A stretch of DNA of 64,000 nt from Gluconobacter kondonii (GTDB taxonomy: Bacteria > Pseudomonadota > Alphaproteobacteria > Acetobacterales > Acetobacteraceae), in assembly GCF_002723995.1 (NCBI RefSeq), contig NZ_BEWP01000001.1, forward strand, positions 62,001 through 126,000, written 5' to 3'. The translations under genes were made by a program, and so were the position numbers. The notes under the pieces were generated by a model, which saw nothing but the letters and a program-made list of their open reading frames with translations, was not told where the DNA came from and searched no databases. This document shows positions 1 to 32,160 of this stretch, one piece after another (the first letter of the stretch is position 1; the number at the start of each line of letters is the position of its first letter).

Positions 1-453
1 TTCGAACATGTCGTCCGCGTCATCGACCGTCCGGACAAGGAAACCGCGTTCCGCACACGCGGAGCGGACGAGCGTGAACTGACCCTGCTCGAACTGGCAC
101 ACGACCTGCGCTACGGCCTGCCGGGCATCGAATACCGCACACTCCGGGCTGAAATGGACTTCCGCATGGCCCGCGCCATTGCCATTCCCTTCATTCCTCC
201 CCTCGCAGTCGCACTGGCCATCAGCGCGAGACGACGCAAATCCGTCTGGGGCCTGATTGCCGTCGCGGTCATTCTGATCGGCTTCGACCAGACTTTAATG
301 TTCGGCCACAGCCTCGCCTCCACGGGTCGTCTGCCGATCTGGCTGGCGATCTGGGTGCCGGAAGCCCTGTTCTGCATAGGCTGTCTCGCGGCCCTGCTGC
401 GCCGTTCCCGCGGTTCGTGGCGCCGTCGCCTGCTGAAACGGGCCGCAGCATGA
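1..453 (+). CDS. lptF: LPS export ABC transporter permease LptF (3' part)
   Basis: The window opens inside this gene; 150 C-terminal residues are visible and the reading frame is open from base 1. The visible part ends with hydrophobic segments (residues starting near AIPFIPPLAVALAI, then GLIAVAVILIGF and a last one near IWVPEALFCIGC), the usual C-terminal transmembrane bundle of the YjgP/YjgQ family. LptF and LptG form the inner-membrane permease that extracts lipopolysaccharide and feeds the periplasmic Lpt bridge. The assignment leans on the next gene, a complete LptG whose ATG overlaps the stop of this one (ATGA). Because the N-terminal half is missing, the LptF identity is from gene order and topology rather than from full-length comparison. 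Confidence 0.85.
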   Translation, partial: FEHVVRVIDRPDKETAFRTRGADERELTLLELAHDLRYGLPGIEYRTLRAEMDFRMARAIAIPFIPPLAVALAISARRRKSVWGLIAVAVILIGFDQTLMFGHSLASTGRLPIWLAIWVPEALFCIGCLAALLRRSRGSWRRRLLKRAAA

Positions 454-1559
454 CCGCCTCTACGCCTCCCATGCCGCGTTTCGTGCTCATCAAGGCGCTC
501 AACCGGGCCCTGCTGGGCCGGTTCATGTTGTGCGGTGTCGTGCTCGTCTCTCTGCTGGAAATTCTGGCCCTGATGGAGAAGACGACACCGATCCTGAACC
601 GGCATCTCGGTCTTCGCGGGATTCTGACCTTCGCGTTCCTGCATCTACCTGCACTCAGCATCGACATCCTGCCGCTGGCCTTCATGGTCGGCGCGCTCTT
701 TCTGCTGACGCAGATGACGCTGTCGAGCGAAATCTCCGCCTTACGCGCAGCCGGACTTTCGACACCCGCGCTGTATCGCCTGCTCCTACCCGCCGTTCTG
801 ATTGTCGGCATCGGCGGCACCTGCGCTCAATACTGGCTTGTTCCGCCCTGCGAAAACGCTCTCACCACATGGTGGAACCGAACAGATCCTCTGGCCGGAC
901 AGGACGGACAACCCGAAGACAACATCCTGTGGTTTCGCGCAGGGCCAACACTGGTCCGGATCGGGCAGATCGCCCAGGGAGGATATTTCCTGCGGGATGT
1001 GACGATCTATCACCGTGACTCCACGGGGTTGCTCACCGGAACCGAACACACAAATACGCTAACCTACACACAGGGCCAGTGGCATCCTGATGGTGCGCAG
1101 GATCTTTCCCTTTCCGAAGACAAATCGTTCGTAAATGTCACAACGGGCGATAGCACCTTCATTATCCCCGCCACCCCATCCACCATCATGACACTGTCCC
1201 AGAGCGGTGCTTTCGTCACACCGGGGCAGATCAGTGCCATTCTGCACAAGGGGGCTCCGGCAAGTCTGCCCAGAGCCACCTACCGCATGGCCCTCTTTGG
1301 CGGCATGATTTTACCGTTCGAAATTGCAGTAATGCTTCTATTGACGCTTCCGGTGATCTATATCCCTCCCCGTGCAGGACTTCGAAATCCGCTTCCGGTG
1401 TATGTTCTTGGCGCCGGAATGGGCTTCGTCATCCTGCAGGGAATGATTTCCGCACTTGGAAACGCAGGCACGCTGCCAGCCCCGCTGGCTGTCAGCGTCG
1501 GGCCATTGCTTGGCGCCCTTCTGGGTTTAACCTGGGTCCTGCGGATGGAGGAACGATGA
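450..1559 (+). CDS. lptG: LPS export ABC transporter permease LptG
   Basis: A 369-residue YjgP/YjgQ family membrane protein, the partner of LptF in the LptBFG extractor of lipopolysaccharide. The N-terminus carries the family pattern of one helix (RFMLCGVVLVSLLEILAL) followed by a second with LPALSIDILPLAFMVGALF and the cytoplasmic coupling stretch SSEISALRAAGLS that contacts the LptB ATPase. A periplasmic jellyroll domain fills roughly residues 125-260, and four helices close the protein. I chose the ATG at 450, which overlaps the lptF stop as ATGA, over an in-frame GTG at 417 that would lie deep in lptF. Its own stop overlaps the next start in the same way, so the five genes from lptF to the glycosyltransferase look translationally coupled. 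Confidence 0.92.
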   Translation: MTASTPPMPRFVLIKALNRALLGRFMLCGVVLVSLLEILALMEKTTPILNRHLGLRGILTFAFLHLPALSIDILPLAFMVGALFLLTQMTLSSEISALRAAGLSTPALYRLLLPAVLIVGIGGTCAQYWLVPPCENALTTWWNRTDPLAGQDGQPEDNILWFRAGPTLVRIGQIAQGGYFLRDVTIYHRDSTGLLTGTEHTNTLTYTQGQWHPDGAQDLSLSEDKSFVNVTTGDSTFIIPATPSTIMTLSQSGAFVTPGQISAILHKGAPASLPRATYRMALFGGMILPFEIAVMLLLTLPVIYIPPRAGLRNPLPVYVLGAGMGFVILQGMISALGNAGTLPAPLAVSVGPLLGALLGLTWVLRMEER

Positions 1560-2371
1560 GCACTTTCACTGCACCGTGGCGCAACATGTCCGCCATCCGG
1601 ACTGGCCGCAGCTTTGATCTGGGGAAGATGAACCTCTCCCAGCTCTGGTTCGCCTATCTGACCTATCCGACAATCCTGCTCTATTTCGCCCTGATCGCGG
1701 GCGCTGCCTGGGCGGCCCTGCATTTCTCGACTGCCCTGTGGGTGACACTCATCCCCGTTCCCGTCGTGATCGTGGTCTACCCGCTGGCCTGGTATGCGAT
1801 CCACCGCTTCATCCTTCACGGGCGCTGGCTCTACCGCAACCACTGGACAGCTTCGCTATGGAAGCGCATCCATTTCGACCATCATCAGGACCCGCACCTG
1901 CTGGACGTTCTGTTCGGCTCGCCACTGAACACGGTGCCGACGATGGCTATCATCACGATGCCGATCGGCGGTCTGATCGCGGGCTGGAGTGGGGCGTTCT
2001 GCGCGCTTTCGACCGCGCTGGTCATGACCTGCATCTATGAATTCTTCCACTGCATTCAGCATCTGGCCTACAAGCCGCGCTGGAAATGGGTGGCGAACAT
2101 CAAGCAGCTGCATGTCCTGCATCACTTCCATGACGAAGACGGCAATTACGGCATCACGAACTACGTGCCGGACCGTCTGTTCAGCAGCTTCTACCGTGAA
2201 GCGCGTGACCGGCCCCGCAGCAAGCATGTGTTTAATCTCGGTTACGATCTTGAAGAAGCACACCGCTATCCGTGGGTCATGGACCTGACCGGTTCACCCC
2301 CGAAAGATCGCCCGGACGGGGCCCGTCCGGCAGCATCGCGCAAAACGTCAGACCGTAACCACGCGGCATGA
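1556..2371 (+). CDS. Membrane fatty acid hydroxylase / sterol desaturase family protein
   Basis: This 271-residue integral membrane protein has the complete set of histidine clusters of the non-haem diiron fatty acid hydroxylase superfamily: HRFILH at 83-88, HFDHH at 106-110, HCIQH at 165-169 and HVLHHFH at 186-192. Hydrophobic helices lie at about 38-55, 61-80 and 127-160, which places the diiron site on the cytoplasmic face. Known members hydroxylate or desaturate fatty acyl, ceramide or sterol chains. Acetic acid bacteria are known to carry 2-hydroxy fatty acids in ceramides, so a lipid 2-hydroxylase is my inference; a carotenoid or hopanoid substrate is possible. ATGA overlaps on both sides tie it to lptG and to the nucleotidyltransferase. 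Confidence 0.8.
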   Translation: MSTFTAPWRNMSAIRTGRSFDLGKMNLSQLWFAYLTYPTILLYFALIAGAAWAALHFSTALWVTLIPVPVVIVVYPLAWYAIHRFILHGRWLYRNHWTASLWKRIHFDHHQDPHLLDVLFGSPLNTVPTMAIITMPIGGLIAGWSGAFCALSTALVMTCIYEFFHCIQHLAYKPRWKWVANIKQLHVLHHFHDEDGNYGITNYVPDRLFSSFYREARDRPRSKHVFNLGYDLEEAHRYPWVMDLTGSPPKDRPDGARPAASRKTSDRNHAA

Positions 2372-3123
2372 GTCTTCCGGTTCTGGTGCTCGCGGGTTCG
2401 CGTGACGGCGAGAATGATGTTCTCGCAAAACTCGGGAGGGTTTCTCACAAGGCGCTCCTTCCCGTCGCAGGCCAGCCTATGCTGGCCCGCGTGCTGGACA
2501 CCATTGCCCAGACTCCCGGCCTCGGCCCCGTCACGATCAGCATCGAAAACCCGGATTGCATCCAACACCTCACGGGAGACGCCACGATCCTGCGCTCAGC
2601 TCCTTCTCCCAGCGAAAGCGTTGCCGAAGCGATCGACCGGATTGGCACGCCCTGTCTGGTGACGACAGCCGACCACGCGCTTCTTCGCCCGGAATGGATT
2701 GAAGAATTTCTGGCCAAAGCACAGGGCTGCGATCTGGCAGCAGGCGTGGCGTTACGCGCAACAGTTGAACGCGATGTTCCCGGCACGAAACGCACCTATA
2801 TCCATCTTTCGGATATGAGTTTCTCAGGTTGTAACCTGTTCCTGATCGGCACTCCAAAAGGGCGGAACGTCATCGAATTGTGGAAGCGCCTTCAGCAGAA
2901 CCGCAAACAGCCGCTTCGAATGGCTCTGACTCTTGGCCTCGGCACGTTGCTGCGCGCCGTGACGCGTACACTGGATTCCAGCGCTCTTTACCGCCGTATC
3001 CAGAAGCTCACCGGCGCGAACGTCCGACTGGTGACGCTGTCGGACGGGCGCGCCGCGGTGGATGTGGACAAGCCGTCCGACCTGACGCTGGCTGAACAGA
3101 TTCTGGCGCAGACGACCCCATGA
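2368..3123 (+). CDS. MobA-like nucleotidyltransferase
   Basis: A 251-residue protein with the N-terminal signature of the MobA/GlmU-type nucleotidyltransferase fold: VLVLAGSR near residues 5-12 and the HKALLPVAGQPML segment near 27-39, where the lysine contacts the NTP phosphate. A TTADHALLRPEW stretch near residue 109 supplies the metal-binding aspartate region and VDVDKPSDL closes the domain. Such enzymes join a nucleotide to a sugar phosphate, inositol phosphate, choline phosphate or the molybdopterin cofactor. The operon gives no molybdenum gene, but it does hold a lipid hydroxylase before and a glycosyltransferase after, so activation of a lipid head group is the better guess. The substrate cannot be read from sequence. 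ATGA overlaps at both ends. Confidence 0.75.
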   Translation: MSLPVLVLAGSRDGENDVLAKLGRVSHKALLPVAGQPMLARVLDTIAQTPGLGPVTISIENPDCIQHLTGDATILRSAPSPSESVAEAIDRIGTPCLVTTADHALLRPEWIEEFLAKAQGCDLAAGVALRATVERDVPGTKRTYIHLSDMSFSGCNLFLIGTPKGRNVIELWKRLQQNRKQPLRMALTLGLGTLLRAVTRTLDSSALYRRIQKLTGANVRLVTLSDGRAAVDVDKPSDLTLAEQILAQTTP

Positions 3124-4190
3124 AAATCGCCTACATCATCAATTCGCTCGAATGTGGCGGCGCACAGCTTCCCATTCCGGATATTGTTTCCGTCATGCGC
3201 GCCCGAGGCGGGGATGTGACGGTCTTCGCGCTGGCCCGCAAAGACGGCCTCGCGATTCCGTTGCTCGAAGCCGCAGGCATTCCGGTGCGCGTACGCGAAG
3301 GCACAACGCGCGACCACATCGCAGCCTATCGCTGGCTGCGCAACGAGATGGAAGCGTTCCAGCCCGACCTGATCTGGACGTCACTGAGCCGCGCCACACT
3401 TCTGGGACAACTGGTCGCCCTGCACCGCAAGACTCCAACGGTCCACTGGCAGCATTGCGGACGCCTCAAGAAGGCCAACGCATTCCTCCTCAGGCTCTGC
3501 CGTCCCTACACCACGCTCTGGGTGGCAGACTCCCAGTCGGTCATCACTTTCGCCGCCAAAGAGCTCGGCCTCAGCGACAATTTCGTGGCCTGGCCCATTT
3601 TCCGCGCCGATCCCAATGCGCCCATCGCAACACCGTGGAAAGAAGGCGAAATCGTCCGTGTCGGCTCTCTGGGACGCCTCAATCCGGTCAAGGCCTATGA
3701 CATCCTCTGCGATGCCGTGGCCCTCCTGAAAGACCATCCCGACCTGCCGCCATTTCGTCTTCAGATCGCAGGAGATGGCCCTCTGCATGGCGCGCTTCAG
3801 GCACGCATTACGACTGGAAATCTGCCGATCGACCTTCCGGGCTATACGTCAAAGCCCATGGACTTCCTGAAAACCCTGCATCTTTATGTCCAGTCGTCAC
3901 ACTGGGAGGGCATGTGTGTCGCAGGACATGAAGCCATGACATGCGGTCTCCCTGTTGTCGCAACTCCTGCCGGAGAACTGCCGTCCAGCATCCTCGACGG
4001 CGAGACAGGGCGCATCGTACCATTCGACAACGCCCCTGCCCTCGCAGCCGCTCTGTCGGACTTGATCGGCAGACCCGCCGATCTGGCAGCAATGGGTGAA
4101 CGCTCCCGCAAGCGGGTTCTGGAACGCTTCGGACCAGAAGCCTTCACCCGCAACGGTAACGCCGTACTGGATCGCATTCCGGGCTTCTGA
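3120..4190 (+). CDS. Family 4 glycosyltransferase
   Basis: A 356-residue GT-B glycosyltransferase without signal peptide or clear membrane helices. The N-terminal domain starts with KIAYIINSLECGGAQ, the acceptor-side glycine-rich loop of GT4 enzymes. The C-terminal Rossmann domain has VGSLGRLNPVKAYD, IAGDGPL and the EX7E-like block SHWEGMCVAGHEAMTCGLPV followed by GETGRIVPF. It should transfer a nucleotide-activated hexose to a lipid or glycan acceptor at the cytoplasmic face. It is the last gene of the lptF-lptG operon and its start overlaps the nucleotidyltransferase stop by ATGA, which suggests the nucleotidyltransferase might make its donor or acceptor. It ends 17 bases from the facing gene. 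Confidence 0.85.
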   Translation: MKIAYIINSLECGGAQLPIPDIVSVMRARGGDVTVFALARKDGLAIPLLEAAGIPVRVREGTTRDHIAAYRWLRNEMEAFQPDLIWTSLSRATLLGQLVALHRKTPTVHWQHCGRLKKANAFLLRLCRPYTTLWVADSQSVITFAAKELGLSDNFVAWPIFRADPNAPIATPWKEGEIVRVGSLGRLNPVKAYDILCDAVALLKDHPDLPPFRLQIAGDGPLHGALQARITTGNLPIDLPGYTSKPMDFLKTLHLYVQSSHWEGMCVAGHEAMTCGLPVVATPAGELPSSILDGETGRIVPFDNAPALAAALSDLIGRPADLAAMGERSRKRVLERFGPEAFTRNGNAVLDRIPGF

Positions 4191-4207
4191 ACGCCCGGAT
4201 TACGCCT

Positions 4208-5098
4208 TCAGGCTCCGAAGAGCCGCCGCTTCACATTCAGCAGATCCCGTTTCGGGCCAAGTCCGATTTTCTTGACGTCAATCAGCGTCACCTGCCCGGC
4301 TGCGGAGAGCGTGTGCATTCCGTCCCCAAAACGCCGACGCAGGGACGCTGGAATGGAGATCGTCAGGCCGGGTGTGACTTTCGGCAGTCCACGTTCCAGC
4401 CCCTCAATTTCCAGCAGCCGAATACCGCGCCCATAAGTGCCCTGACAGTCCTGTGTCGGCAGAATGATCTTTCCATCCACAACAACCGGCGTTCCTGCAG
4501 GACGCGCACCTGCACGGTCGTTCAGGAAAAGCCCAAGATTCTTCCATGAGCCCGTCAGCGTATCGGCAACCGAGATATTCAGCAGACTCTGCCGCTCGAC
4601 CTTACTGCCCGCAGGAGTCCAGAACATCCACCAGCGACCGGCATGCTGGAACGGCGTGGCGTCGATCGCGGCTTCGGGGAAATCGAAAGCCTCGACGCGC
4701 GCCCAGCCCCGGGGAAACGATGTCGCACGATAGAGCGAAAGACGCCCCGAGGCGCTCGCTTCGGGCAACAAGTAAACCTCTCCCTCATGCTCGAACACAA
4801 AGGGGTAAGACAGGTGCCAGGGCTCTTCCAGAACGCTCTCGCGAGACAGCAGACGCCCCGTACCGTCATAGATCAGAACCTCGATCGTGCCTTTCGGATG
4901 ACGATAATCGAACGCTTCGGCAAAGACATGCAGCTTTCCGTCTCGCCACAGGCCGAAAGGGTCCGCTAGAAAACGATGATCCCCGATGTCAGGCAGCGTC
5001 GTGATAGGAAAACCGTTCAGACTGGCCGCATCGACGATCTCCGCCAGAGGCGCATGAACGATGGCGCATCGCCAGTGATCTGTCCGCAGAAATGGCAT
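4208..5098 (-). CDS. Beta-propeller protein like the N-terminal domain of glucosamine inositolphosphorylceramide transferase
   Basis: A 296-residue protein with repeated five-bladed propeller motifs: HRFLADPFGLWRDGKLHVFAE near residues 38-58, SYPFVFEHEGEVYLLPE, AAIDATPFQHAGRWWMFW and GTPVVVDGKIILPTQD. The pattern matches the GH43-like propeller annotated as the N-terminal domain of plant GINT1, which glycosylates inositolphosphorylceramide; bacterial copies are usually called hypothetical or formyltransferase-associated. No signal peptide is seen. I start it at the ATG 5098, preceded by GGGAGGAG at good distance; a longer frame to 5203 would run into the next gene. It faces the glycosyltransferase operon and is divergent from mmcB. 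A glycan-binding or lipid-glycosylating role is inference. Confidence 0.6.
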   Translation of the reverse strand: MPFLRTDHWRCAIVHAPLAEIVDAASLNGFPITTLPDIGDHRFLADPFGLWRDGKLHVFAEAFDYRHPKGTIEVLIYDGTGRLLSRESVLEEPWHLSYPFVFEHEGEVYLLPEASASGRLSLYRATSFPRGWARVEAFDFPEAAIDATPFQHAGRWWMFWTPAGSKVERQSLLNISVADTLTGSWKNLGLFLNDRAGARPAGTPVVVDGKIILPTQDCQGTYGRGIRLLEIEGLERGLPKVTPGLTISIPASLRRRFGDGMHTLSAAGQVTLIDVKKIGLGPKRDLLNVKRRLFGA

Positions 5099-24028: not shown

Positions 24029-24319
24029 ATGAAAACGATGTTCGCTTCTTTTCTGGTCCTTGGACTTCTGGGCGGAACCGCACTCGCACAGGATCCGAAA
24101 GTCGAAAACGCGGTGGCCAGCGCTTCTTCAGACGCGAAAGCCCCTGTCACGCAGGTTGCGGACACAAAGAACAGCGAGACCTGCACTCAGGTCTGGGTCA
24201 ACACAATGACCCATGTCTATCATGTACCGGGTAGCTTCTGGTACGGCGCGACGGCGCACGGAACCTATATGTGCGAAGACGACGCCAAGCGGGCGGGGAA
24301 TACACGCGGCCAGTTCTGA
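24029..24319 (+). CDS. Small secreted protein with a C-terminal sunset/Ada-like YHxPGSxWYG module
   Basis: A 96-residue protein with a Sec signal peptide ending at TALAQD (cleavage near residue 20). A short Ala- and Lys-rich linker leads to a compact domain: CTQVWVNTMTHVYHVPGSFWYG, then GTYMCEDDAKRAGN. The arrangement, aromatic-His-x-Pro-Gly-Ser, Tyr-Gly, then Tyr-Met-x-Glu-x-Asp-Ala and Ala-Gly, resembles the small module found at the ends of secreted nucleases and so-called sunset-domain proteins. The two cysteines flanking the motif may form a disulfide. The ribosome binding site is AAAGGA. Function is unknown, and the domain likeness is from memory. Confidence 0.65.
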   Translation: MKTMFASFLVLGLLGGTALAQDPKVENAVASASSDAKAPVTQVADTKNSETCTQVWVNTMTHVYHVPGSFWYGATAHGTYMCEDDAKRAGNTRGQF

Positions 24320-24324
24320 GCCTG

Positions 24325-25140
24325 TCAGGGGGTTTTTGCAGCCCCTGCCTCTCCGGCTTGTCTGGCCTCCACCTCCCGGCTGGCACTTTCCTGTTGTCGC
24401 AGGGCTTCCGCCTGACGTGAATGTCCCGCGGCCTCCGCAGCATCAGCTGCCAGAGTGAGCGCCTGACGCATCCCACGATAATCCAGAGCATCACGGCGGC
24501 TTTTCACGACTGAAAGCGCCTCGTTGGAAGCGAGTTCGGGCTGCCCCTGTGACAGATGCAGACGGGCCAGAAGTTCCTGCCGGTCGATCGTGGCCTCATT
24601 GTCATGGAAGGTCGCCAGATCGTTTGCGCGCTGCCTCAGAGCAGCGGACTGCTTCTGATCTGCGGCAATCAGGCCAGACAAATAAAGCGCTCTCTCCCGA
24701 ATACCCCTATCGGAGGATTGCAGCGCGCGCTGTACAGCCTGCGACGCGAACACCGTATCATGCAACCTGTACAGGGCAGCCGCGCGGATCACCGCCAGAT
24801 CAGACGTGTCGGAGACATTGCGCAGGCTTAGCGCGGTCTCGGTTTCGCCAAGGCTCTGAAGAGCCTTCTGAGGCTTGTCCTGCGCCAGAAGCACCGTCGC
24901 AAGATTGAACCCGGCTTCATGAATGGCGACTGCATCATCCCGCATCAAAGCCCGATCCATAGCCGTTCGATACTGCGCCTCGGCCTGAGACGCCTGACCG
25001 ATCCCATAAACGGCTTTGCCCGTATCCATGGCATCTTCATAAGGCTGATCGGGCTTGGCCCCCTTCGTTGCAGTTGAAGACGAACAGCCGCCCAACGTAA
25101 GAACGACCAAAGCCGTGCATGCCAGAAAACCATACCTCAT
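24325..25140 (-). CDS. TPR-like lipoprotein of the MCE transport operon
   Basis: A 271-residue lipoprotein: hydrophobic stretch, then LGGCSSS, with the lipidated cysteine near residue 19. The mature part is almost wholly alpha-helical with paired helices of about 34 residues (QASQAEAQYRTAMDRALM, EAGFNLATVLLAQDKPQKALQSL, AAALYRLHDTVFASQAVQRAL and so on), i.e. degenerate tetratricopeptide repeats, and a charged Glu/Gln/Ala tail. It is the last gene of the operon; its ATG overlaps the MCE gene stop by ATGA. In other MCE systems an auxiliary lipoprotein (PqiC-like) fills this position but has a different fold, so a TPR scaffold here is unusual. Role inferred from context. Confidence 0.7.
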   Translation of the reverse strand: MRYGFLACTALVVLTLGGCSSSTATKGAKPDQPYEDAMDTGKAVYGIGQASQAEAQYRTAMDRALMRDDAVAIHEAGFNLATVLLAQDKPQKALQSLGETETALSLRNVSDTSDLAVIRAAALYRLHDTVFASQAVQRALQSSDRGIRERALYLSGLIAADQKQSAALRQRANDLATFHDNEATIDRQELLARLHLSQGQPELASNEALSVVKSRRDALDYRGMRQALTLAADAAEAAGHSRQAEALRQQESASREVEARQAGEAGAAKTP

Positions 25141-26093
25141 GGCCGCACCGCCTCAGCCGGAAGACGACGGGAAGGCTCCTGTTTTGCACCTCCGCCTCCC
25201 AGCAGCCACAGGCCCCGGAGTTGATCCGTCAGCTTGCGCAAACTGCTCGCACTCGCTTCGGCCTGCGCCAGAAGGGCCGGAAGCTGGGCCGTGGCGGTAT
25301 TGGCATGGCTGATGGTCTGCTGGATCTGCGGCATACTCTGACGCAGACCCGCAGTCGCGGCCCGCGCGTTGTCCATCGTTCCATCCACCTTGGTCATGAC
25401 CCTCCCAACCTGTTTTTCAATGGGCCGCAGATCCGCAATGACGGCGTCAAGATGCGCCAGAGCCGCATTGGCCTTGTCCAACACATCATCCTTCACCAGC
25501 AGACCGCCGATCGTGCCCTGCCCTTTGCGCATGTCGGTCATCATATCATTTACCTGCGCCGTGATGAGCTGGACGTTATTCATCGCCGGCACCAGCTTGC
25601 TGCGTAGATCCATAACGGTCTGGGTAATCACATCCGCCGGGTTGGCTTCCACCGTGGCCTGAAGGACCGCATAGCCCCAGTCCAGCGGCTTGCCCTTGCC
25701 GCGCCCGAGTTCGATATAGCTTGCCCCGGCCACGATCAGGCGATGGCGGATGACGGCTGTGCTGTCCTGGCGGATGAAGTTTGCAAATTGCGGGTCCAGA
25801 TCCCCTTCCGCATACATCCGCCCCGTTTCATTGAGTTTGAGACGGCGGATTTCGCCAGCATGGACGCCCATGACTTCGATATCGTCGCCGATCGCAAGCC
25901 CCGCCACGCCGCTTTCGGGCAGAATGAAATGCAGCTTCTTTTCCGGGGTCAGCCACTGACGCAGGAATCCGGCCTCCACGACCGCAACCGCGAACATGAC
26001 GATCGCAGCAAGGACAAGCAGTCCGACCCATTCATCCGCATAGCGGTTTTGAAAGAGCGGACGGGCGGTCTCGGTTTGGCGCAGGCGGAACAT
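25137..26093 (-). CDS. MlaD/MCE-domain lipid transport protein
   Basis: A 318-residue single-pass membrane protein. A transmembrane helix lies at about residues 20-43 (VGLLVLAAIVMFAVAVVEAGF). The MCE domain follows with ESGVAGLAIGDDIEVMGVHAGEIRRLKL, the hallmark strand-turn-strand, and a C-terminal coiled region of about 170 residues ending in Pro- and Arg-rich sequence. MCE proteins form hexameric rings on an MlaE-type permease and pass lipids between membranes. The start overlaps the ATPase stop (TGATG) and the stop overlaps the lipoprotein start (ATGA), so subunits are probably made in step. Confidence 0.88.
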   Translation of the reverse strand: MFRLRQTETARPLFQNRYADEWVGLLVLAAIVMFAVAVVEAGFLRQWLTPEKKLHFILPESGVAGLAIGDDIEVMGVHAGEIRRLKLNETGRMYAEGDLDPQFANFIRQDSTAVIRHRLIVAGASYIELGRGKGKPLDWGYAVLQATVEANPADVITQTVMDLRSKLVPAMNNVQLITAQVNDMMTDMRKGQGTIGGLLVKDDVLDKANAALAHLDAVIADLRPIEKQVGRVMTKVDGTMDNARAATAGLRQSMPQIQQTISHANTATAQLPALLAQAEASASSLRKLTDQLRGLWLLGGGGAKQEPSRRLPAEAVRP

Positions 26094-26812
26094 CAGGAAC
26101 CTCGCATCGAAAACAGTCCATCATCGTACAGTCTCAGGCGGATCGTGGCATCGGACGCATAATCCCCCCACCCGCTTTCATCCGGAGCCATCCACACCAC
26201 CGCGCAGCCACGGTCCCGCAGATCGGTCACGAGAGACAGGAACGCATGCATCAGGCTGGCGGAAGCCCCTTCCATCGGGTGTTCCAGCAGCAGGAGCGCC
26301 GGTTCTCCCAGCATGGCCCGCACACAAGCCGCGCGCTGCCGGTCCATCGCCGATAGGCGTCCCGGTGGCACCACCGGCAGGCCCGGCAGACCCAGCGTTA
26401 CCGCCAGATGCACGGCCTGTGCCTGAAGTTTTTCAATCGGGGTCCGTGTATGGTGAAGCTGTGGCCACAGGATGTTCATATGCGTCCCATACAGATCCAC
26501 CCAGCCTCCCGTGACTACGATCCGCCCGATCCGCCCCCGCAAGGCATTACTGCGCCGTTCGTCCAGATCGGCCCAGTCCAGCCCCATACAGCGGACGTGG
26601 CCGTCATCAAGCGGAATAAGGCCCACGCACATATCGGCGAACAGTGCCGCCTGCCCCATGTCCCGACACTCGATCAGCGCGCACTCGCCGGGATTGAGAC
26701 GCAGATTATAGCGGCTCGACACCAGCCCGCTCTCATCAAACCGGGGACGCGCGTCCACCAGTTCGAGCCGGGCTTCCAGCACATCGGACAGGACGTCATC
26801 GTTTTCAGCCAT
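26093..26812 (-). CDS. Degenerate ABC ATPase subunit of the MCE transporter
   Basis: A 239-residue protein whose length, order of blocks and position mark it as the MlaF-type ATPase, yet almost every catalytic motif is altered. The segment after NLRLNPGECALI should be the Walker A GxxGxGKS/T; it reads ECRDMGQAAL (about residues 48-57) with no lysine. The LSGGQ signature is LSAMDRQ (153-159). Walker B is ALLLLEHP (172-179) with no Asp-Glu pair, and the switch histidine position reads WMAPDE. Only the overall pattern (GLIPLDDGHV, RQRAACVRAMLGEPALLLL) keeps the family look. It overlaps the permease and MCE genes. Other reading frames do not restore a P-loop, so a simple frameshift is unlikely. 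It may be a structural pseudo-ATPase. Confidence 0.75.
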   Translation of the reverse strand: MAENDDVLSDVLEARLELVDARPRFDESGLVSSRYNLRLNPGECALIECRDMGQAALFADMCVGLIPLDDGHVRCMGLDWADLDERRSNALRGRIGRIVVTGGWVDLYGTHMNILWPQLHHTRTPIEKLQAQAVHLAVTLGLPGLPVVPPGRLSAMDRQRAACVRAMLGEPALLLLEHPMEGASASLMHAFLSLVTDLRDRGCAVVWMAPDESGWGDYASDATIRLRLYDDGLFSMRGS

Positions 26813-27629
26813 CGAAACACACGCTGAAAACGACGTTGATAATCATGATCGACAGCATTCCCCGCGCAAACCCGCGCGGCAGCATGCTCGCCAGATCGTC
26901 TTCGGTTGTCACATCCATGCCTGAGAGGCACGAACAGACACCCACCGCGTAGCCGCTGAAAACGAACTTGGCCGGAATCACGAAATAGTCGATCGGCTTT
27001 ACGCTCCCCGCGACCTGATCCATGAACGCCCAGATCGGCATGGTGATCGCATCTTCCACGCGGCAGACTGCATAACCCACGACAAGCGCCGTCAGACTGA
27101 AGATGATGCCCAACGTAAAGCCGCTGATCGTCATGGCGAGACTGCGCGGCACAAGAAACGAAATAAAGGGATCAACCCCCATTCCGGTCATGGCGCGCAT
27201 CTGTCCGCCTGTCGTGAGCGTTCCGAGTTCGGTCAGCATCAGCATCCCCGAACGTCCCAGCAGGATCACACCCACAAGAACCGGCGCGATTTCACGCACC
27301 AGAACCGTTGACAGAATAGAGCCGGTCATCTGCGCCATGCCTGCAAAGCCGAGCCAGTAGACGGTCTGCGCCACGATCCCGAACCCTGTCAGCGCGGCGG
27401 TCACGAGCGTACTCAGCAGCCCTCCGCCCACCGCCTGATGCAGGGATGCCCAGAATTCGATCCGCACAGTCCGACGCCATGTCGTCAGGCGGGTGGCTTC
27501 GCGCATAATGCCCCACCCGGCCCCGATCATCATCAGCGTAAAACGCATCTGCGTGCGGGAAAAATATCCCAGATGGACCAGCATGGTCCGGACCATCGTG
27601 ATCCGGTCGAGATTGCGCAGTCCTTTCAT
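26805..27629 (-). CDS. MlaE-family ABC permease
   Basis: A 274-residue permease of the MlaE/YrbE family. The amphipathic N-terminal helix is followed by five or six hydrophobic helices; the conserved block PVLVGVILLGRSGMLMLTELGTL and MTGMGVDPFISFLVPRSLAMTISGF match the family stretch around the coupling helix. It would be the membrane channel beneath the MCE ring and normally needs two MlaF ATPases. The loop GRSG-MTELG matches the family pattern, so the permease itself does not look decayed even though its ATPase partner does. It overlaps its neighbours by eight and four bases. Confidence 0.9.
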   Translation of the reverse strand: MKGLRNLDRITMVRTMLVHLGYFSRTQMRFTLMMIGAGWGIMREATRLTTWRRTVRIEFWASLHQAVGGGLLSTLVTAALTGFGIVAQTVYWLGFAGMAQMTGSILSTVLVREIAPVLVGVILLGRSGMLMLTELGTLTTGGQMRAMTGMGVDPFISFLVPRSLAMTISGFTLGIIFSLTALVVGYAVCRVEDAITMPIWAFMDQVAGSVKPIDYFVIPAKFVFSGYAVGVCSCLSGMDVTTEDDLASMLPRGFARGMLSIMIINVVFSVCFDG

Positions 27630-29986
27630 CGACGTCCTGCCAGAACGAAGCTGCGCGTAATGCCGCTATTGGGAAGATAGAACATCCCGCGGGCGCGGAA
27701 GAGGAAATGCTCCCGCAGGATCAGATAGGCCTGTTCGGACACCTGGATCGTCCCTGCATCCGGTGCACTCCCGGTCAGGAGTTCGGCCCCGTTGAGCGCA
27801 TCGCCCCAGATATTGAAGACGGAAGGAGCCTCTCCCAGCTCGGAGGCCATGACAGATCCCACATCCATTCCGATCCGGAACACAGGGTCCAGATCCGCCG
27901 CCGCCAGAGACGACAGGCAGGCTTCACGGATCGATACCGCCGCATCCGCAAGGCGCACGGCGGCGGACGGGTCTGGCGTCTGCGAGCAGCCACCCACGAG
28001 AACGAGCCTGTTGCTCACCACCTGCACGGAGAATAGTCCGCTGTCGCGGGCGATCTTCTGGATTTCCAGACTGAGCGTGCGGATGACGGTCATGGCGCGC
28101 GTGATGCTGTCACGATCCGGCGCGTAAGGGTCCACGAAGGAAATGACCATGACCGGAACCTGCGGGTAGAACCCCGCCGCAATCGGCTCTCCCGCTGTAG
28201 GCGATGGCTCCAGAAGGAAGCCTTCGCCAAAGCGCGTTTCGTATTTCTCGGCCGGAACCGCAAATCCGGACGTGCCGTCGGCTGCCGCATCGAACGGCTT
28301 GGCAAAACGCAGAGCGACGACCGATCCTACGATGGCAATGATATGCTCCATCGTTTCGACCTGCCCCGGATCTTCCAGAACGATGGCGCCAACCGTCCGG
28401 TGAGCATTGCGGACCGGCTGGAACAGAAGCGTGCTAGCGCCCACGGCCCGCATGATGACGCGCTGGAAATTCTGCGTCCGCTCGTCCTGCGAGGCATCCG
28501 CGATCGACAGCGTATGTCCTTCGTCCAGAGCCTCGAACAGCTTGCCGTTTTCTCGGCGGCTGATTTCAATGCCCGTGCTGTGAACATCGCGCGACGGATC
28601 GAACGCATCCTCACACAACAAACGATCGCCGTCCGGTAACAGTCGCCACAGGCTGGCGCGACGTGCGCTGGTCCGCGCGGTCAGGGCTTCCGTCAGGATC
28701 GGTGCTTCATGAGCAGGATCGAACAGATCCGGCGTACTGGCGATTTCCAGCAGCGAGGCATTTTCCGCCCTGATCTGCTCGCGCCCCTGAAATATCCTCT
28801 TTCGCAGACGCTCCACATGCCGCCCCTGCGCCACCAGTGCGAACGCTAGGACGGACGCCAGCATGACGATCAGCAGCGAAAACCCGATATTCTGCCGCCG
28901 CGCCGTCTGCGCGAAATCGGCAAAATCGCTTTCAGGGGCATTGAGCAGCAGAACCCACTGTCGATGTACGAAGGGCAGTTCAGAGGCAATCGTGACGTAG
29001 TTCTTTCCATGTGCCCGCACTGCACCCGTTCCCGGCCCCTCGATGCGGTACCGGTTGAGCGCCTGCGTGAAGACCGGCTGCGTCTTGGGGTCGAGGAAGA
29101 CATTCCCCGGATCGAAGGTTTTCGAGTCCTGTCCGGGGGCCATATTATGCCCGGCAATAATCTGGCCGTGCATGTTCACAATCACGGCCTGACCACTGCG
29201 TCCGACCTGAAGTTTATTGAGAAACGACGTCAGCTGGTTCAGCGAAACATTGATCGCAAACACCGATTTATGTCCGTCATGCCCATCATAGGCGAGCGAT
29301 GCCGTGATGATGAACTGGTGCGTGGACACAAAGGCATATGGATCGGTCCAGTGGAGCTGACGGCCCGGATCGTTCTGATGCTTGATGGCCTTGGCGAACC
29401 ACGGGCGCAACACGACATTATAGCCGTCAGCCGGGTCCGCCGCTTCTCCCGTAATATTGCCATCTCTATCTGTATAGACGTGGTGATAGACCTGTTTGCC
29501 ATCGTCGGTCTGGAAATGGGTCTGCTCGAACCCGTCCTTTCCATGCCGCGTGATCATCCAGAACTGGCCCTGATCGTTCGCAATATAGAAACTGTCCACC
29601 TGAGGCGCGTGGGCCAAAATGGAGCGTCCGTAGAGCATGAACGTGGCGGGGGTGGCATTGGTCAGTGGATCGCGGAACATGTCCCGCGCGATCATGGCGC
29701 CGACGGAAGCCGGAGCCAGATAGTCGCTCACTTCCTGCGTCACATAACGCTGTTGGCTGCGCAGAAGATCGTTGGACAGCGCAATCGCGCCTCGGCGCGT
29801 CGTCTGGTAATTGTGAAGACTGATGCCCGTGATCGCGGCGATGACCAGCAGAACGCCCACGAACGGCCCCAGAATCTGAAAGATCCGACGACGGTCGCTG
29901 GCGGGGCTCTGTGTAGGGTCCACGATCTCTGCGGCTGACAACGTCTTTTCTCTCCGGACAGGCACGGGGTCGCGGAACAGGGCCAT
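27626..29986 (-). CDS. Membrane sensor with Cache, GAF and degenerate class III cyclase domains
   Basis: A 786-residue protein. Helix one (about residues 37-58) and helix two (near FSLLIVMLASVLAFALVA, about 365-382) enclose a periplasmic dCache-like domain with PWFAKAI, TDPYAFVSTHQFIITASLAY and GRSGQAVIVNMHGQIIA. A GAF-like domain follows, then a C-terminal cyclase homology domain with VISFVDPY, FRIGMDVGSVMASELGE and WGDALNGAE. The first metal aspartate is present, but the second metal position reads SNRL instead of a GD pair, and the arginine after the WGDALN asparagine is leucine, so catalysis is doubtful. It heads the MCE operon (ATGA overlap with the permease). The ATG at 29986 was chosen over a longer frame to 30196 that would cover the ygfZ start. 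A regulator of lipid transport is inference. Confidence 0.75.
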   Translation of the reverse strand: MALFRDPVPVRREKTLSAAEIVDPTQSPASDRRRIFQILGPFVGVLLVIAAITGISLHNYQTTRRGAIALSNDLLRSQQRYVTQEVSDYLAPASVGAMIARDMFRDPLTNATPATFMLYGRSILAHAPQVDSFYIANDQGQFWMITRHGKDGFEQTHFQTDDGKQVYHHVYTDRDGNITGEAADPADGYNVVLRPWFAKAIKHQNDPGRQLHWTDPYAFVSTHQFIITASLAYDGHDGHKSVFAINVSLNQLTSFLNKLQVGRSGQAVIVNMHGQIIAGHNMAPGQDSKTFDPGNVFLDPKTQPVFTQALNRYRIEGPGTGAVRAHGKNYVTIASELPFVHRQWVLLLNAPESDFADFAQTARRQNIGFSLLIVMLASVLAFALVAQGRHVERLRKRIFQGREQIRAENASLLEIASTPDLFDPAHEAPILTEALTARTSARRASLWRLLPDGDRLLCEDAFDPSRDVHSTGIEISRRENGKLFEALDEGHTLSIADASQDERTQNFQRVIMRAVGASTLLFQPVRNAHRTVGAIVLEDPGQVETMEHIIAIVGSVVALRFAKPFDAAADGTSGFAVPAEKYETRFGEGFLLEPSPTAGEPIAAGFYPQVPVMVISFVDPYAPDRDSITRAMTVIRTLSLEIQKIARDSGLFSVQVVSNRLVLVGGCSQTPDPSAAVRLADAAVSIREACLSSLAAADLDPVFRIGMDVGSVMASELGEAPSVFNIWGDALNGAELLTGSAPDAGTIQVSEQAYLILREHFLFRARGMFYLPNSGITRSFVLAGRR

Positions 29987-30175
29987 ACTGCCGCGATAGG
30001 TCAATATCCTCCGAGTATTGCGAGACTGCAACCCGCCGTCACGGACTGAAACAACCCTGCGCCCGAAAATACTCTCATGTTCCCGAACTGGCGGTTTGCA
30101 GGGTTCCTCGTTATGGTCAGACGTTTTTCCGGCAGGATGGTTTTGCTGGACGCTGTCGGAATTGCGGTCACTCCC

Positions 30176-30985
30176 ATGAATCAACATCTTTCCCACCGCG
30201 CCGTCCTGTCCTTCACAGGTGCGGACCGGACCAGCTTTCTTCAGGGCCTCATCACGAATGACGTCCAGAGCCTCGCGCCCGCGACCTCCGTTTGGAGCGC
30301 GCTTTTAACGCCGCAGGGCCGCTGGCTGAGCGAATTTTTCCTGTATGACGCATCCGACCGCATTCTGATGGATTGCGCGGCAGAGCATGCCGACATGCTC
30401 GTCAAGCGCCTCTCCCGTTTCCGCCTTCGCGCCGATGTGCAGATCGAAAAAACGGACCTGCGCGTCATCACTGGCGCAGAGAGCGGACATGTTCCGCCCG
30501 ATACGATCACGCACGCACCGGACCCACGCTGCGATGGCGCGGGCTGGCGGGCCATCGTGACCGGAACCGGGCAAGGTGGCGAGACGCCTGAAGAATTTCT
30601 GGCACGCCGCCTCACGCTGGGCCTGCCCGACGTCATGGATTTCGAAAGCGAACAGACACTGGCTCTGGAAGCAGACATGGACCTTCTGAACGGCGTCTCA
30701 TGGAAAAAAGGCTGCTACATGGGGCAGGAACTGACCGCCCGTACCCATTACCGTGGCCTTGTCAAACGCCGCCTGTTGCCTGTGGTGCTGCCGGACGGCA
30801 TGTTCCCGGGCGAAGGCGGCATCATCATCGCGGGAGACCGCGAGGTTGGAGACATCCGCTCCCGCAGCGGCAACCGGGCACTTGCAATGCTGCGGCGAGA
30901 CGCCTGGTCTTCCACCGAACTGACCTGCAACGGGCAGCCGCTTTCTGTCGTCTGGCTCGCCTGGTTTCCCCCGGAAATGCGTTGA
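30176..30985 (+). CDS. ygfZ: Folate-binding Fe-S maintenance protein YgfZ
   Basis: A 269-residue GcvT-like tetrahydrofolate-binding protein. The family signature KGCYMGQELTARTHYRG (K-G-C-x-x-G-Q-E) is intact near residues 181-197, with the redox cysteine. FLQGLITNDV and LLTPQGRWLSEFFLY are the N-terminal folate-binding blocks. YgfZ helps keep iron-sulfur enzymes active, among them MiaB in other bacteria, and miaB is also in this window though far away. The ATG at 30176 is preferred to an in-frame start at 30077, since SHRAVLSFTGADRTSF is the usual N-terminus. It is 12 bases upstream of hisI and probably cotranscribed. Confidence 0.92.
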   Translation: MNQHLSHRAVLSFTGADRTSFLQGLITNDVQSLAPATSVWSALLTPQGRWLSEFFLYDASDRILMDCAAEHADMLVKRLSRFRLRADVQIEKTDLRVITGAESGHVPPDTITHAPDPRCDGAGWRAIVTGTGQGGETPEEFLARRLTLGLPDVMDFESEQTLALEADMDLLNGVSWKKGCYMGQELTARTHYRGLVKRRLLPVVLPDGMFPGEGGIIIAGDREVGDIRSRSGNRALAMLRRDAWSSTELTCNGQPLSVVWLAWFPPEMR

Positions 30986-30997
30986 GGAGATGCGTTC

Positions 30998-31408
30998 GTG
31001 ACCTATACCCCCCCTTCTCCAGCGATTGTCGATGACATCATCGCGCAGGTAAAATTCGATGCAAACGGCCTGATTTCAGCTCTCGCGCAGGCGCCGGACG
31101 GCATGGTGCTGATGCTGGCGTGGATGAATACGGATGCCCTGCGCGAGACGCTTCTGACCGGTCGTGTCTGTTACTGGTCCCGCAGCCGCCAGAAACTGTG
31201 GCGCAAGGGGGAGACTTCAGGACAGCAACAGAAACTGATCGAAGCGCGGCTCGACTGTGACATGGATGCCGTTCTCATGATCGTGGATCAGACCGGTGTG
31301 GCCTGCCATACGGGCCGCCGGAGCTGTTTCTATCATGGCGTGACGCCGGACGGACTGCGCGATACCGCACAGCCCGAAATCAGCGCCGAAGAACTTTACG
31401 GACGCTGA
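30998..31408 (+). CDS. hisI: Phosphoribosyl-AMP cyclohydrolase HisI
   Basis: A 136-residue enzyme of histidine synthesis, opening the purine ring of phosphoribosyl-AMP. The zinc and magnesium ligands are visible in LDCDMDAVLMIVDQTGVACHTGRRSCFY, with KGETSG as substrate loop and MLAWMNTDALRETL as the N-terminal signature. It is a single-domain form without a fused HisE. GTG start with GAGGAGA upstream. The end overlaps the facing RNase T2 gene by 13 bases. Other his genes are not in the window. Confidence 0.96.
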   Translation: MTYTPPSPAIVDDIIAQVKFDANGLISALAQAPDGMVLMLAWMNTDALRETLLTGRVCYWSRSRQKLWRKGETSGQQQKLIEARLDCDMDAVLMIVDQTGVACHTGRRSCFYHGVTPDGLRDTAQPEISAEELYGR

Positions 31409-32160
31409 GCAGCCTGACCCGACAGGCTCCAGCCCGGTACGAGGAACGTAGCCGGGCAGCCATTCTGGTCGTCCGGTGAAGACAGATAGGCGCCCTCATA
31501 AGGGAAGCGCGACAGCTTCTTCGGGTCCAGCGTGAACCAGAGCTGCGTCAGGACCATCTGTCCGTTATGCGCTGGCTCGCAGCGGACCTGAAGTGCCCGG
31601 TCGTCATGCACGTTCATCAGGCGTGCGAACATGGCGAGAAGATCGTCACGTTTGACCTGAAAACCCTCCTGCTGCGACAGCCACACTCCGAAAGCCGACG
31701 CTGCGAACCGATCACGCAGTTGCATGGACGTGACGAAAAAGCTGTCCGCATCATAGCCGAAGCAGCGGGCGTGCTTGGTGTATTCATGCACATAAAGCGG
31801 CTTTTTCAGATGCGGCACGACGCCCCGCAACGCCTCGACCGTCGTGGGCAGGAGCTGGGGCGGGGTGTCGTCATGATCGTAGAGATCGCAACCCTTCGAC
31901 CACCATTCCTGCACCGGCACGCCCTGCGCCTCCAGAGCATGCGGTTCAGACGCCCACAGCCCGTGCAGACCAATCGAGATCCGATGCGTCTGGTCCCATT
32001 CGCATCCACCGCCCGTAGCGCAGAACCCCGGCTGCCAAGTCAGCGCCAGCGTATCATGCCGGAAATCGGTATGGGCCGTCGGCGTAAGCGAAGGCCCGGT
32101 TGGCGCCTGAGAAACACAGCCTGCCATCAAAAAGAAAGTAGCAAGAACGGAACGCTTCAC
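31396..32160 (-). CDS. RNase T2 family ribonuclease, predicted lipoprotein
   Basis: A 254-residue protein with a signal sequence ending LMAGCVS (possible lipobox, cysteine near 15). Both active-site stretches of RNase T2 are present: CAS I in ISIGLHGLWAS near residues 63-72 and CAS II in YVHEYTKHARC near 123-133, with the two histidines, glutamate and lysine kept; tyrosine replaces the usual tryptophan. Six or more cysteines could form disulfides. It would degrade RNA outside the cytoplasm for nutrient salvage. The GTG start overlaps the fghA stop (GTGA), so it is the third gene of frmA-fghA, an unusual partnership. Confidence 0.85.
   Translation of the reverse strand: MKRSVLATFFLMAGCVSQAPTGPSLTPTAHTDFRHDTLALTWQPGFCATGGGCEWDQTHRISIGLHGLWASEPHALEAQGVPVQEWWSKGCDLYDHDDTPPQLLPTTVEALRGVVPHLKKPLYVHEYTKHARCFGYDADSFFVTSMQLRDRFAASAFGVWLSQQEGFQVKRDDLLAMFARLMNVHDDRALQVRCEPAHNGQMVLTQLWFTLDPKKLSRFPYEGAYLSSPDDQNGCPATFLVPGWSLSGQAAQRP

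Follow-up and report, generated by a model that had tools for sequence, protein, structure and literature searches.

In the 64,000-nucleotide stretch of Gluconobacter kondonii DNA analysed here (contig NZ_BEWP01000001.1, positions 62,001 to 126,000; hereafter the window), five open reading frames (ORFs) on the minus strand, running from 29986 down to 24325, encode in order a dCache-GAF-cyclase-like sensor, an MlaE permease, a homologue of ABC ATPases, an MCE protein and a TPR lipoprotein. The five genes are conserved together and in this order among relatives, and both nucleotide sites that the operon encodes, that of the ATPase homologue and that of the cyclase-like domain of the sensor, have lost catalytic residues across the family. 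We regard it as an evenly balanced proposition that the products form a dedicated five-part envelope lipid-transport system, acting as an ATP-independent, signal-gated lipid conduit with a layout like that of the Mpc system.

Along the operon, successive ORFs overlap by 4, 8, 1 and 4 bases, in agreement with a preliminary description of the window that had reported five genes in one direction with overlaps of 1-8 bases. Pfam models matched above their cut-offs for dCache_1 (6.4e-16), Guanylate_cyc (4e-11), GAF (4.5e-6), MlaE (3.8e-37) and MlaD (PF02470; 1.7e-9), while ABC_tran matched the ATPase homologue (0.078) and TPR models matched the lipoprotein below cut-off.

The occurrence of the genes was followed across the family Acetobacteraceae and beyond. 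An orthologue of the ATPase homologue (E <= 6.3e-22, with the next match following after a gap at 3.3e-13) was found in 46 of the 150 family genomes searched, and all 46 also carry the sensor. The sensor occurs in 48 of the 150, these 46 plus G091 and G108, where it is present only as a fragment running off a contig start and where a missing contig is the likely explanation. The preliminary description had held that failure of the five genes to co-occur in relatives, or frequent occurrence of the sensor without the transporter, would speak against a dedicated system; neither was found among the 150 family genomes or among 385 and 372 genomes of the class searched with the ATPase homologue and the sensor, respectively.

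Gene order was counted by tblastn, with truncated copies included (L044, L055, L077, L139, L149, L177), in two sets of loci, 45 from family relatives and 80 others (the best 80 of 124 confirmed), which have species in common and so do not count as independent. The complete five-gene order was present at 77/80 and 40/45 loci, and the four core genes had the same strand and order at 45/45 relatives' loci (merely as fragments at L077). The misses at L074, L075 and L078 in the 45-locus set and at L104 and L163 in the best-80 set fall at contig ends, and those of the TPR gene at L066 and L073 were false, a lipobox ORF being present after the MCE gene when the loci were read by eye. The true exception is L151, on a 4.5-kb contig of Komagataeibacter europaeus, where a transposase-like ORF (174-1676, minus strand), which we take to be of the IS110 type, replaces the permease. 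The gene for the ATPase homologue directly precedes the MCE gene at 80/80 loci and adjoins the permease gene at 79/80 (by no more than 150 bases in 77), and the junction between the MCE and TPR genes lies within -10 to 0 bases in 71/79; an apparent gap of +899 bases at L069 was an artefact of start choice, the TPR ORF there overlapping the MCE stop by 4 bases.

Genera with the locus include Gluconobacter, Acetobacter, Komagataeibacter, Novacetimonas, Gluconacetobacter, Asaia, Bombella, Saccharibacter, Commensalibacter and Lichenicoccus. Outside the family, the orthologue of the ATPase homologue was found in two of the 385 class genomes (G185 and G500; 240 and 236 bits, with the next best at 85), which belong to other families and carry all five genes in order, and among the 372 class genomes a full-length sensor was found in these two alone, three weaker matches covering the Cache part only. 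No further loci for the ATPase homologue or the sensor appeared in a phylum sample of 299 genomes, and no relative with an intact ATPase paired with the same sensor was found among the 385 and 372 class genomes or the 299 phylum genomes. In trees of the sensor, permease, ATPase homologue and MCE protein (34 taxa), G185 and G500 fell in a clade with L064 and L073-L076 with support of 0.99-1.0 in all four, and since the four trees agree on the placement of these outsiders, the genes seem to have moved as a group. The data support treating sensor and TPR lipoprotein as parts linked to the transporter set, in agreement with the preliminary description, which had called them dedicated components. 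At one locus (L077, G126:C1:295500-307500), in a genome of about 2 Mb, all parts of the operon are fragmented together, which suggests joint decay of the unit; frames are truncated at a few others (L044, L055, L139, L149, L177).

The ATPase homologue, 98% identical to its G. cadivus and G. cerevisiae counterparts, is predicted to keep the fold of an ABC nucleotide-binding domain (NBD). It matched the NCBIfam models for FtsE (5e-11) and MlaF (5e-8) below cut-off, and profile comparison aligned 208 columns to the intact ATPase of the Mpc-type locus of the same genome, at a probability of 90%. An AlphaFold2 model (pLDDT 87.9) gave 50 listed PDB matches that were ABC ATPases or transporters (query TM-scores of 0.67-0.80), with YbbA, FtsE, MacB, MlaF and LolD at the top.

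The normal ATP site, by contrast with the fold, is lost. Residues were tallied in 110 distinct orthologues of the ATPase homologue and in 109 sensors, with identical sequences and short fragments dropped (the fragments being 4 sensors, 1 ATPase, 5 permeases, 4 MCE proteins and 1 TPR protein) and L097 and L098 kept. The Walker A Lys was found in 0/110 orthologues, with Arg in 66 and Gln in 27 instead, and the Gly places of Walker A held Gly in 0, 6 and 16. The Walker B Asp was kept in 1/110, with Glu there in 106, and the H-switch His was likewise present in a single orthologue. The ABC signature is altered, with Asp157 in 110/110 where LSGGQ has Gln. New invariant positions have appeared in the family (R92, G96, P143, G144, P146 and D157 in 110/110; R97 and H121 in 109), and in the model the helix following the Walker A strand begins at residue 52, two residues ahead of where the Lys would lie, which leaves a short loop. 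Substitution of MlaF in Escherichia coli, by Lys47Ala in Walker A or Glu170Gln in Walker B, is reported to give proteins that fail to complement (PMC7367683). Because the ATP-site residues are lost family-wide and these single changes already disable MlaF, the homologue, hereafter the pseudo-ATPase, is very likely catalytically dead; it may still bind some nucleotide.

Class III nucleotide cyclases are defined by two metal-binding Asp residues together with a transition-state Asn and Arg. The sensor domain homologous to them can be aligned with an adenylate cyclase of the mycobacterial type (PDB 5o5k, 1.5e-13), and in the window protein the second metal Asp is replaced by Asn, the transition-state Arg by Leu and the substrate Lys by Gln. 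Of the 109 sensors, 1 has the second metal Asp, 5 have the transition-state Arg and 19 the transition-state Asn, and the register of the first metal Asp is ambiguous (F-x-D in 78/109). Fold positions of the domain are retained, with G728 in 109/109 and W727 in 107/109. As read from this alignment, the cyclase domain lacks the defining class III catalytic residues family-wide, and the claim in the preliminary description that the operon has two defective nucleotide sites thus extends to the whole family.

The Cache domain of the sensor aligns with that of PctA, and the amino-acid motif positions of dCache sensors, which in PctA numbering include Y121, R126, W128, Y129 and D173 (PMC10104139), were mapped by hand on this alignment. 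Among 109 Cache domains, Y121 was kept in 92, R126 in 84, W128 in 107 and Y144 in 98, and the Y129 place held Tyr in 60 and Phe in 48. The D173 place, which in the PctA-type receptors is a residue contacted by amine ligands, was Asn in 88 of the domains, with Asp in 12 others and Ser in the remaining 9. The carboxylate-binding Arg of the PctA type is mostly kept, and the D173 equivalent is Asp in some deep-branching copies, so a ligand switch is possible. We speculate that the ligand may be a carboxylate without an amine, for example an organic or sugar acid.

The pseudo-ATPase and the pseudo-cyclase domain are both under purifying selection. In comparisons with six Gluconobacter congeners (L103, L105, L106, L108, L109, L111), every segment had a ratio of nonsynonymous to synonymous substitution rates (dN/dS) within 0.005-0.15, and the pseudo-cyclase domain one of 0.005-0.049. 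For the pseudo-ATPase the ratio was 0.031-0.100 against five of them (L103, L105, L106, L109, L111), comparisons in which most segments had dS values no higher than about 1. The pseudo-cyclase had the lowest value of the seven segments in 4/6 congeners (permease lower in L109, GAF in L111), and against L113 and L116, more distant relatives with dS above 1 in most cases, it stood at 0.12-0.13 with the MCE gene lowest. It was therefore the most constrained segment in 4/8 comparisons overall, with the permease, GAF or MCE taking that place in the other 4. Mirror-tree partial correlations with the pseudo-ATPase, over the 44 taxa having both control genes, were 0.65 for GAF, 0.48 for the cyclase domain, 0.35 for MCE and 0.22 for Cache. 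We treat these values as a weak hint of a partnership between sensor and pseudo-ATPase, because the value for the permease, the expected physical partner of the ATPase, was only 0.19.

The permease matched MlaE as its sole Pfam family above cut-off and has no fused STAS domain. The MCE protein has a single N-terminal transmembrane segment by hydropathy, a C-terminus matching helical models and a TIGR00996 match (1.5e-15) below the cut-off of that model; its length, and the precedent of MpcD, make it possible that the C-terminal part is a needle spanning the periplasm. The product of the last gene fits the sequence pattern of an outer-membrane lipoprotein, having a lipobox and no Asp at +2, in line with the +2 rule known from E. 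coli. The lipobox pattern was present in 103/108 lipoproteins of the family, with Asp at +2 in 0/103. TPR families matched a minority of relatives (TPR_2 in 9/54, TPR_12 in 7/54), and the AlphaFold2 model is a solenoid of 12 helices (pLDDT 89.9) whose top PDB matches were TPR proteins (E 8e-5, query TM-scores of about 0.5-0.6 for the first 22). As its gene sits at the PqiC/MpcA position, the lipoprotein is most likely a cap receiving the needle at the outer membrane. That it might be a disguised PqiC was considered and rejected, since profile comparison gave a probability of 1.7% with an alignment covering just the signal peptide and lipobox, and the model is all-helical; no match to PF03886 (ABC_trans_aux) at E 0.01 was obtained among 54 members.

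The plan of the operon is in part a known one. In the common proteobacterial type, the MCE gene is described as following those of a permease and an ATPase and as being followed by that of a DUF330 lipoprotein (PMC5561183), and Mpc (MpcEFDA) of Brucella abortus, with an MpcD of 331 aa, is a characterised four-gene system (PMC12436622). With Mpc the window operon has in common the order permease-ATPase-MCE-lipoprotein, an MCE protein of about 320-330 aa with a helical C-terminus, an outer-membrane lipoprotein and the absence of MlaC. Mpc, however, is described as a four-gene operon whose permease carries a fused STAS domain and whose other products include an MlaF-homologous ATPase and a PqiC-like lipoprotein (PMC12436622). 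The window operon lacks STAS, encodes a pseudo-ATPase, ends in a TPR lipoprotein that profile comparison does not relate to PqiC, and comes with a linked sensor. The Mla system (MlaFEDB-C-A) shares the MlaE permease family, an MlaF-related NBD fold and an MCE protein, but the window operon contains neither MlaB nor MlaC and its NBD, of 239 aa against 269 for MlaF, is without a normal ATP site. In DUF330 (ABC_trans_aux) MCE operons and in PqiABC the lipoprotein gene likewise follows the MCE gene (PMC5561183), there encoding an ABC_trans_aux protein in place of the helical TPR solenoid predicted here. The MceG-driven Mce1 and Mce4 systems are also MCE transporters with extra stabilising membrane proteins, but MceG is a shared ATPase that needs its Walker B residues (PMC9947336), and the window operon's own NBD is without them.

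The absence of MlaB and MlaC from the five-gene run, pointed out in the preliminary description, is therefore real but not special, as the DUF330 and Mpc operons described in those reports show (PMC5561183, PMC12436622). The same description had considered the set undescribed. We met no description of the five-gene set among the matches listed in a search of the open literature, which left subscription journals and bioRxiv mostly outside its scope, and the main text of the survey of MCE neighbourhoods contains no 'cyclase', 'TPR' or 'Acetobacter' (PMC5561183); the permease-ATPase-MCE-lipoprotein plan itself is nevertheless known from Mpc and DUF330 operons. New, as far as we have seen, are three features: an ATPase homologue without a normal ATP site, a pseudo-cyclase sensor linked to the transporter, and a TPR lipoprotein that occupies the place of PqiC.

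How such a set may work is suggested by the Mla system, in which spontaneous lipid transfer from MlaD to MlaC without ATP has been described and ATP hydrolysis is reported to prevent it (PMC10212509). Given such ATP-free flow, blocked by hydrolysis, a system with a dead NBD would be expected to pass lipid passively, from inner to outer membrane. A passive conduit needs a gate, and the linked membrane sensor with its cyclase-type cytosolic domain is the obvious candidate. Cytosolic domains of the cyclase type are typically dimeric. In the arrangement we propose, a permease dimer would sit in the inner membrane with an MCE hexamer and its helical needle on top, and the lipoprotein in the outer membrane would receive the far end of the needle. 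On the cytoplasmic side, an NBD dimer that neither binds nor hydrolyses ATP would act as a structural clutch, and the ligand-binding membrane sensor would take the place of ATP. A periplasmic signal received by dCache would pass through GAF to the catalytically dead, presumably dimeric cyclase domain, which would contact the pseudo-NBD dimer directly and so open or close the permease. That a periplasmic signal gates lipid transport is what we infer from this architecture. The most specific form of the proposal, an ABC-type lipid transporter that has wholly abandoned ATP, with the NBD dimer as a mechanical clutch, the ligand-sensing pseudo-cyclase as the switch and a passive inner-to-outer conduit, we put forward tentatively, as a possible rather than a probable state of affairs.

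Several observations weigh against a signal-gated, ATP-independent conduit. Loss of the catalytic residues is incomplete, the Walker B catalytic Glu surviving in 9/110 and the Q-loop Gln in 19/110 pseudo-ATPases, and the substrate Lys being partly kept (30/109) in sensors, of which 78/109 have F-x-D. The junction between sensor and permease genes is looser than the others, lying within -10 to 0 bases in just 37/78 loci, and the mirror-tree value between pseudo-ATPase and permease is low. Away from the sensor fragment, no orthologues of the permease, ATPase or MCE genes were found in the G091 and G108 assemblies, and in these genomes a lone sensor remnant is conceivable. The contact between sensor and pseudo-NBD is itself something that we infer. 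The main text of the one genome-scale screen in Gluconobacter that we found names no lipid, cyclase, MlaD or TPR genes (PMC12041372). Finally, the genome encodes intact homologous ATPases able to act in trans.

This last point underlies the main rival explanation, which we consider rather unlikely while giving it appreciable weight: the permease would use an intact Mla- or Mpc-type ATPase from elsewhere, and the pseudo-ATPase would be a regulatory subunit or one half of a mixed dimer. Besides the window operon, the same genome contains two MlaE loci whose ATPases are intact, the third of its MlaE loci (L080, G000:C18:12000-20000, 1186-4902) being Mpc-type with a STAS-MlaE permease (STAS_2 match 0.0002, below its cut-off), an intact ATPase, a 320-aa MCE protein and an ABC_trans_aux lipoprotein; MCE domains occur at three further loci and two MlaC genes lie elsewhere in the genome. 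Sharing of an ATPase has precedent in the mycobacterial Mce1 and Mce4 systems, which are reported to share MceG (PMC9947336), and there are heterodimeric ABC exporters in which one site is degenerate, their degenerate NBD likewise being kept by selection. In those exporters, however, one functional site remains, whereas in the sole NBD that the window operon encodes, Walker A, Walker B, the signature and the H-switch have all degenerated. As the pseudo-NBD has lost Walker A and the signature together, each of the two composite sites of a mixed dimer would miss either Walker A or a normal signature. The constant place of the pseudo-ATPase gene, directly before the MCE gene and beside that of the permease, also argues against supply in trans, as do 13 of the 46 genomes that have the pseudo-ATPase system plus just one other MlaE; the system is thus retained where the third type is absent from the assembly, though a canonical one remains in each.

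Another explanation, which we find distinctly unlikely, is that the operon encodes a signalling device and not a bulk transporter, the MCE protein and permease sensing lipids or the state of the envelope and informing the Cache-GAF-pseudo-cyclase protein, which would act on another cytoplasmic partner. The close linkage of sensor and transporter fits this, and so does the strong constraint on the pseudo-cyclase, rather than the permease, in half of the comparisons of selection; the other half point to the permease, GAF or MCE. The long C-terminus of the MCE protein and the lipoprotein are parts expected of a trans-envelope conduit, and the nine flank genes of the window that were compared are each present in no more than 65/127 related loci, in a comparison that included no search aimed at a conserved neighbouring regulator.

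More improbable still is an NBD whose nucleotide site is altered and not lost, with Arg or Gln standing in for the Lys of Walker A and Glu for the Asp of Walker B, and which still binds or slowly hydrolyses nucleotide. The prevalence of Arg and Glu at these places (66 and 106 of the 110) does look like conserved substitution, and the modelled fold is intact, but Gly has mostly disappeared from its places in Walker A, a single orthologue retains the H-switch His, the signature is changed and the loop after the strand is short in the model. That the operon is a decaying relic with sites broken by mere decay is very unlikely, in spite of the fragmented L077, the truncated frames and the transposase ORF in L151, given the low dN/dS of all segments, the new invariant motifs across 110 sequences and the retention of the operon in genomes of about 2 Mb.

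In which direction MCE transporters move lipid, and what powers them, is debated, the ATP-free transfer from MlaD to MlaC being reportedly prevented by ATP hydrolysis (PMC10212509). A lineage in which the ATP site is gone while the permease, the MCE protein and the lipoprotein persist amounts to a naturally occurring ATPase-dead variant, in which the question becomes testable. If the signal-gated, ATP-independent conduit is real, two pseudoenzymes, a pseudo-NBD and a pseudo-cyclase, have been kept as a linked pair, which would suggest that a signal acts on the flow of envelope lipids in vinegar and fermentation bacteria.

Table 1. Positions in the window of the five genes, their domains and the altered motif places of the pseudo-ATPase.
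Feature	Position	Strand	Basis
Membrane sensor, 786 aa: transmembrane segment, periplasmic dCache_1, transmembrane segment, GAF, class III cyclase-like domain without catalytic residues	27626..29986	-	Pfam; transmembrane segments by hydropathy
dCache_1 domain, residues 106-334; PctA-type pocket positions mostly kept in relatives	28985..29671	-	Pfam, alignment
GAF domain, residues 430-558	28313..28699	-	Pfam
Pseudo-cyclase domain, residues 632-782	27641..28093	-	Pfam, alignment, dN/dS
MlaE-family permease, 274 aa, no STAS match	26805..27629	-	PF02405 3.8e-37
Pseudo-ATPase, 239 aa: predicted ABC nucleotide-binding-domain fold without normal ATP site	26093..26812	-	profile, model, alignment
Walker A place, reads ECRDMGQA	26648..26671	-	ortholog alignment
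ABC signature place, reads LSAMDRQR	26333..26356	-	ortholog alignment
Walker B place, reads LLLLEHP	26276..26296	-	ortholog alignment
MCE protein, 318 aa: one transmembrane segment, one MCE domain, long C-terminal part	25137..26093	-	PF02470, hydropathy
TPR lipoprotein, 271 aa: lipobox Cys19, Ser at +2, predicted 12-helix solenoid	24325..25140	-	lipobox pattern, model

An alternative start for the sensor, an upstream GTG at 30196, would give a longer protein; in the alignment, most relatives' sensors start near residue 13-19 of the version beginning at 29986, which favours the later start. The GTG at 30196 falls within a divergent gene (30077-30985, plus strand) that we assume to be YgfZ-like. 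Beyond it, an exported-looking protein at 31396-32160 (minus strand), presumably resembling RNase T2, is present in 17/127 related loci. At the other end, a 96-aa exported-looking ORF (24029-24319, plus strand) converges on the operon and was found in 11/127 related loci (L102-L112), all Gluconobacter.

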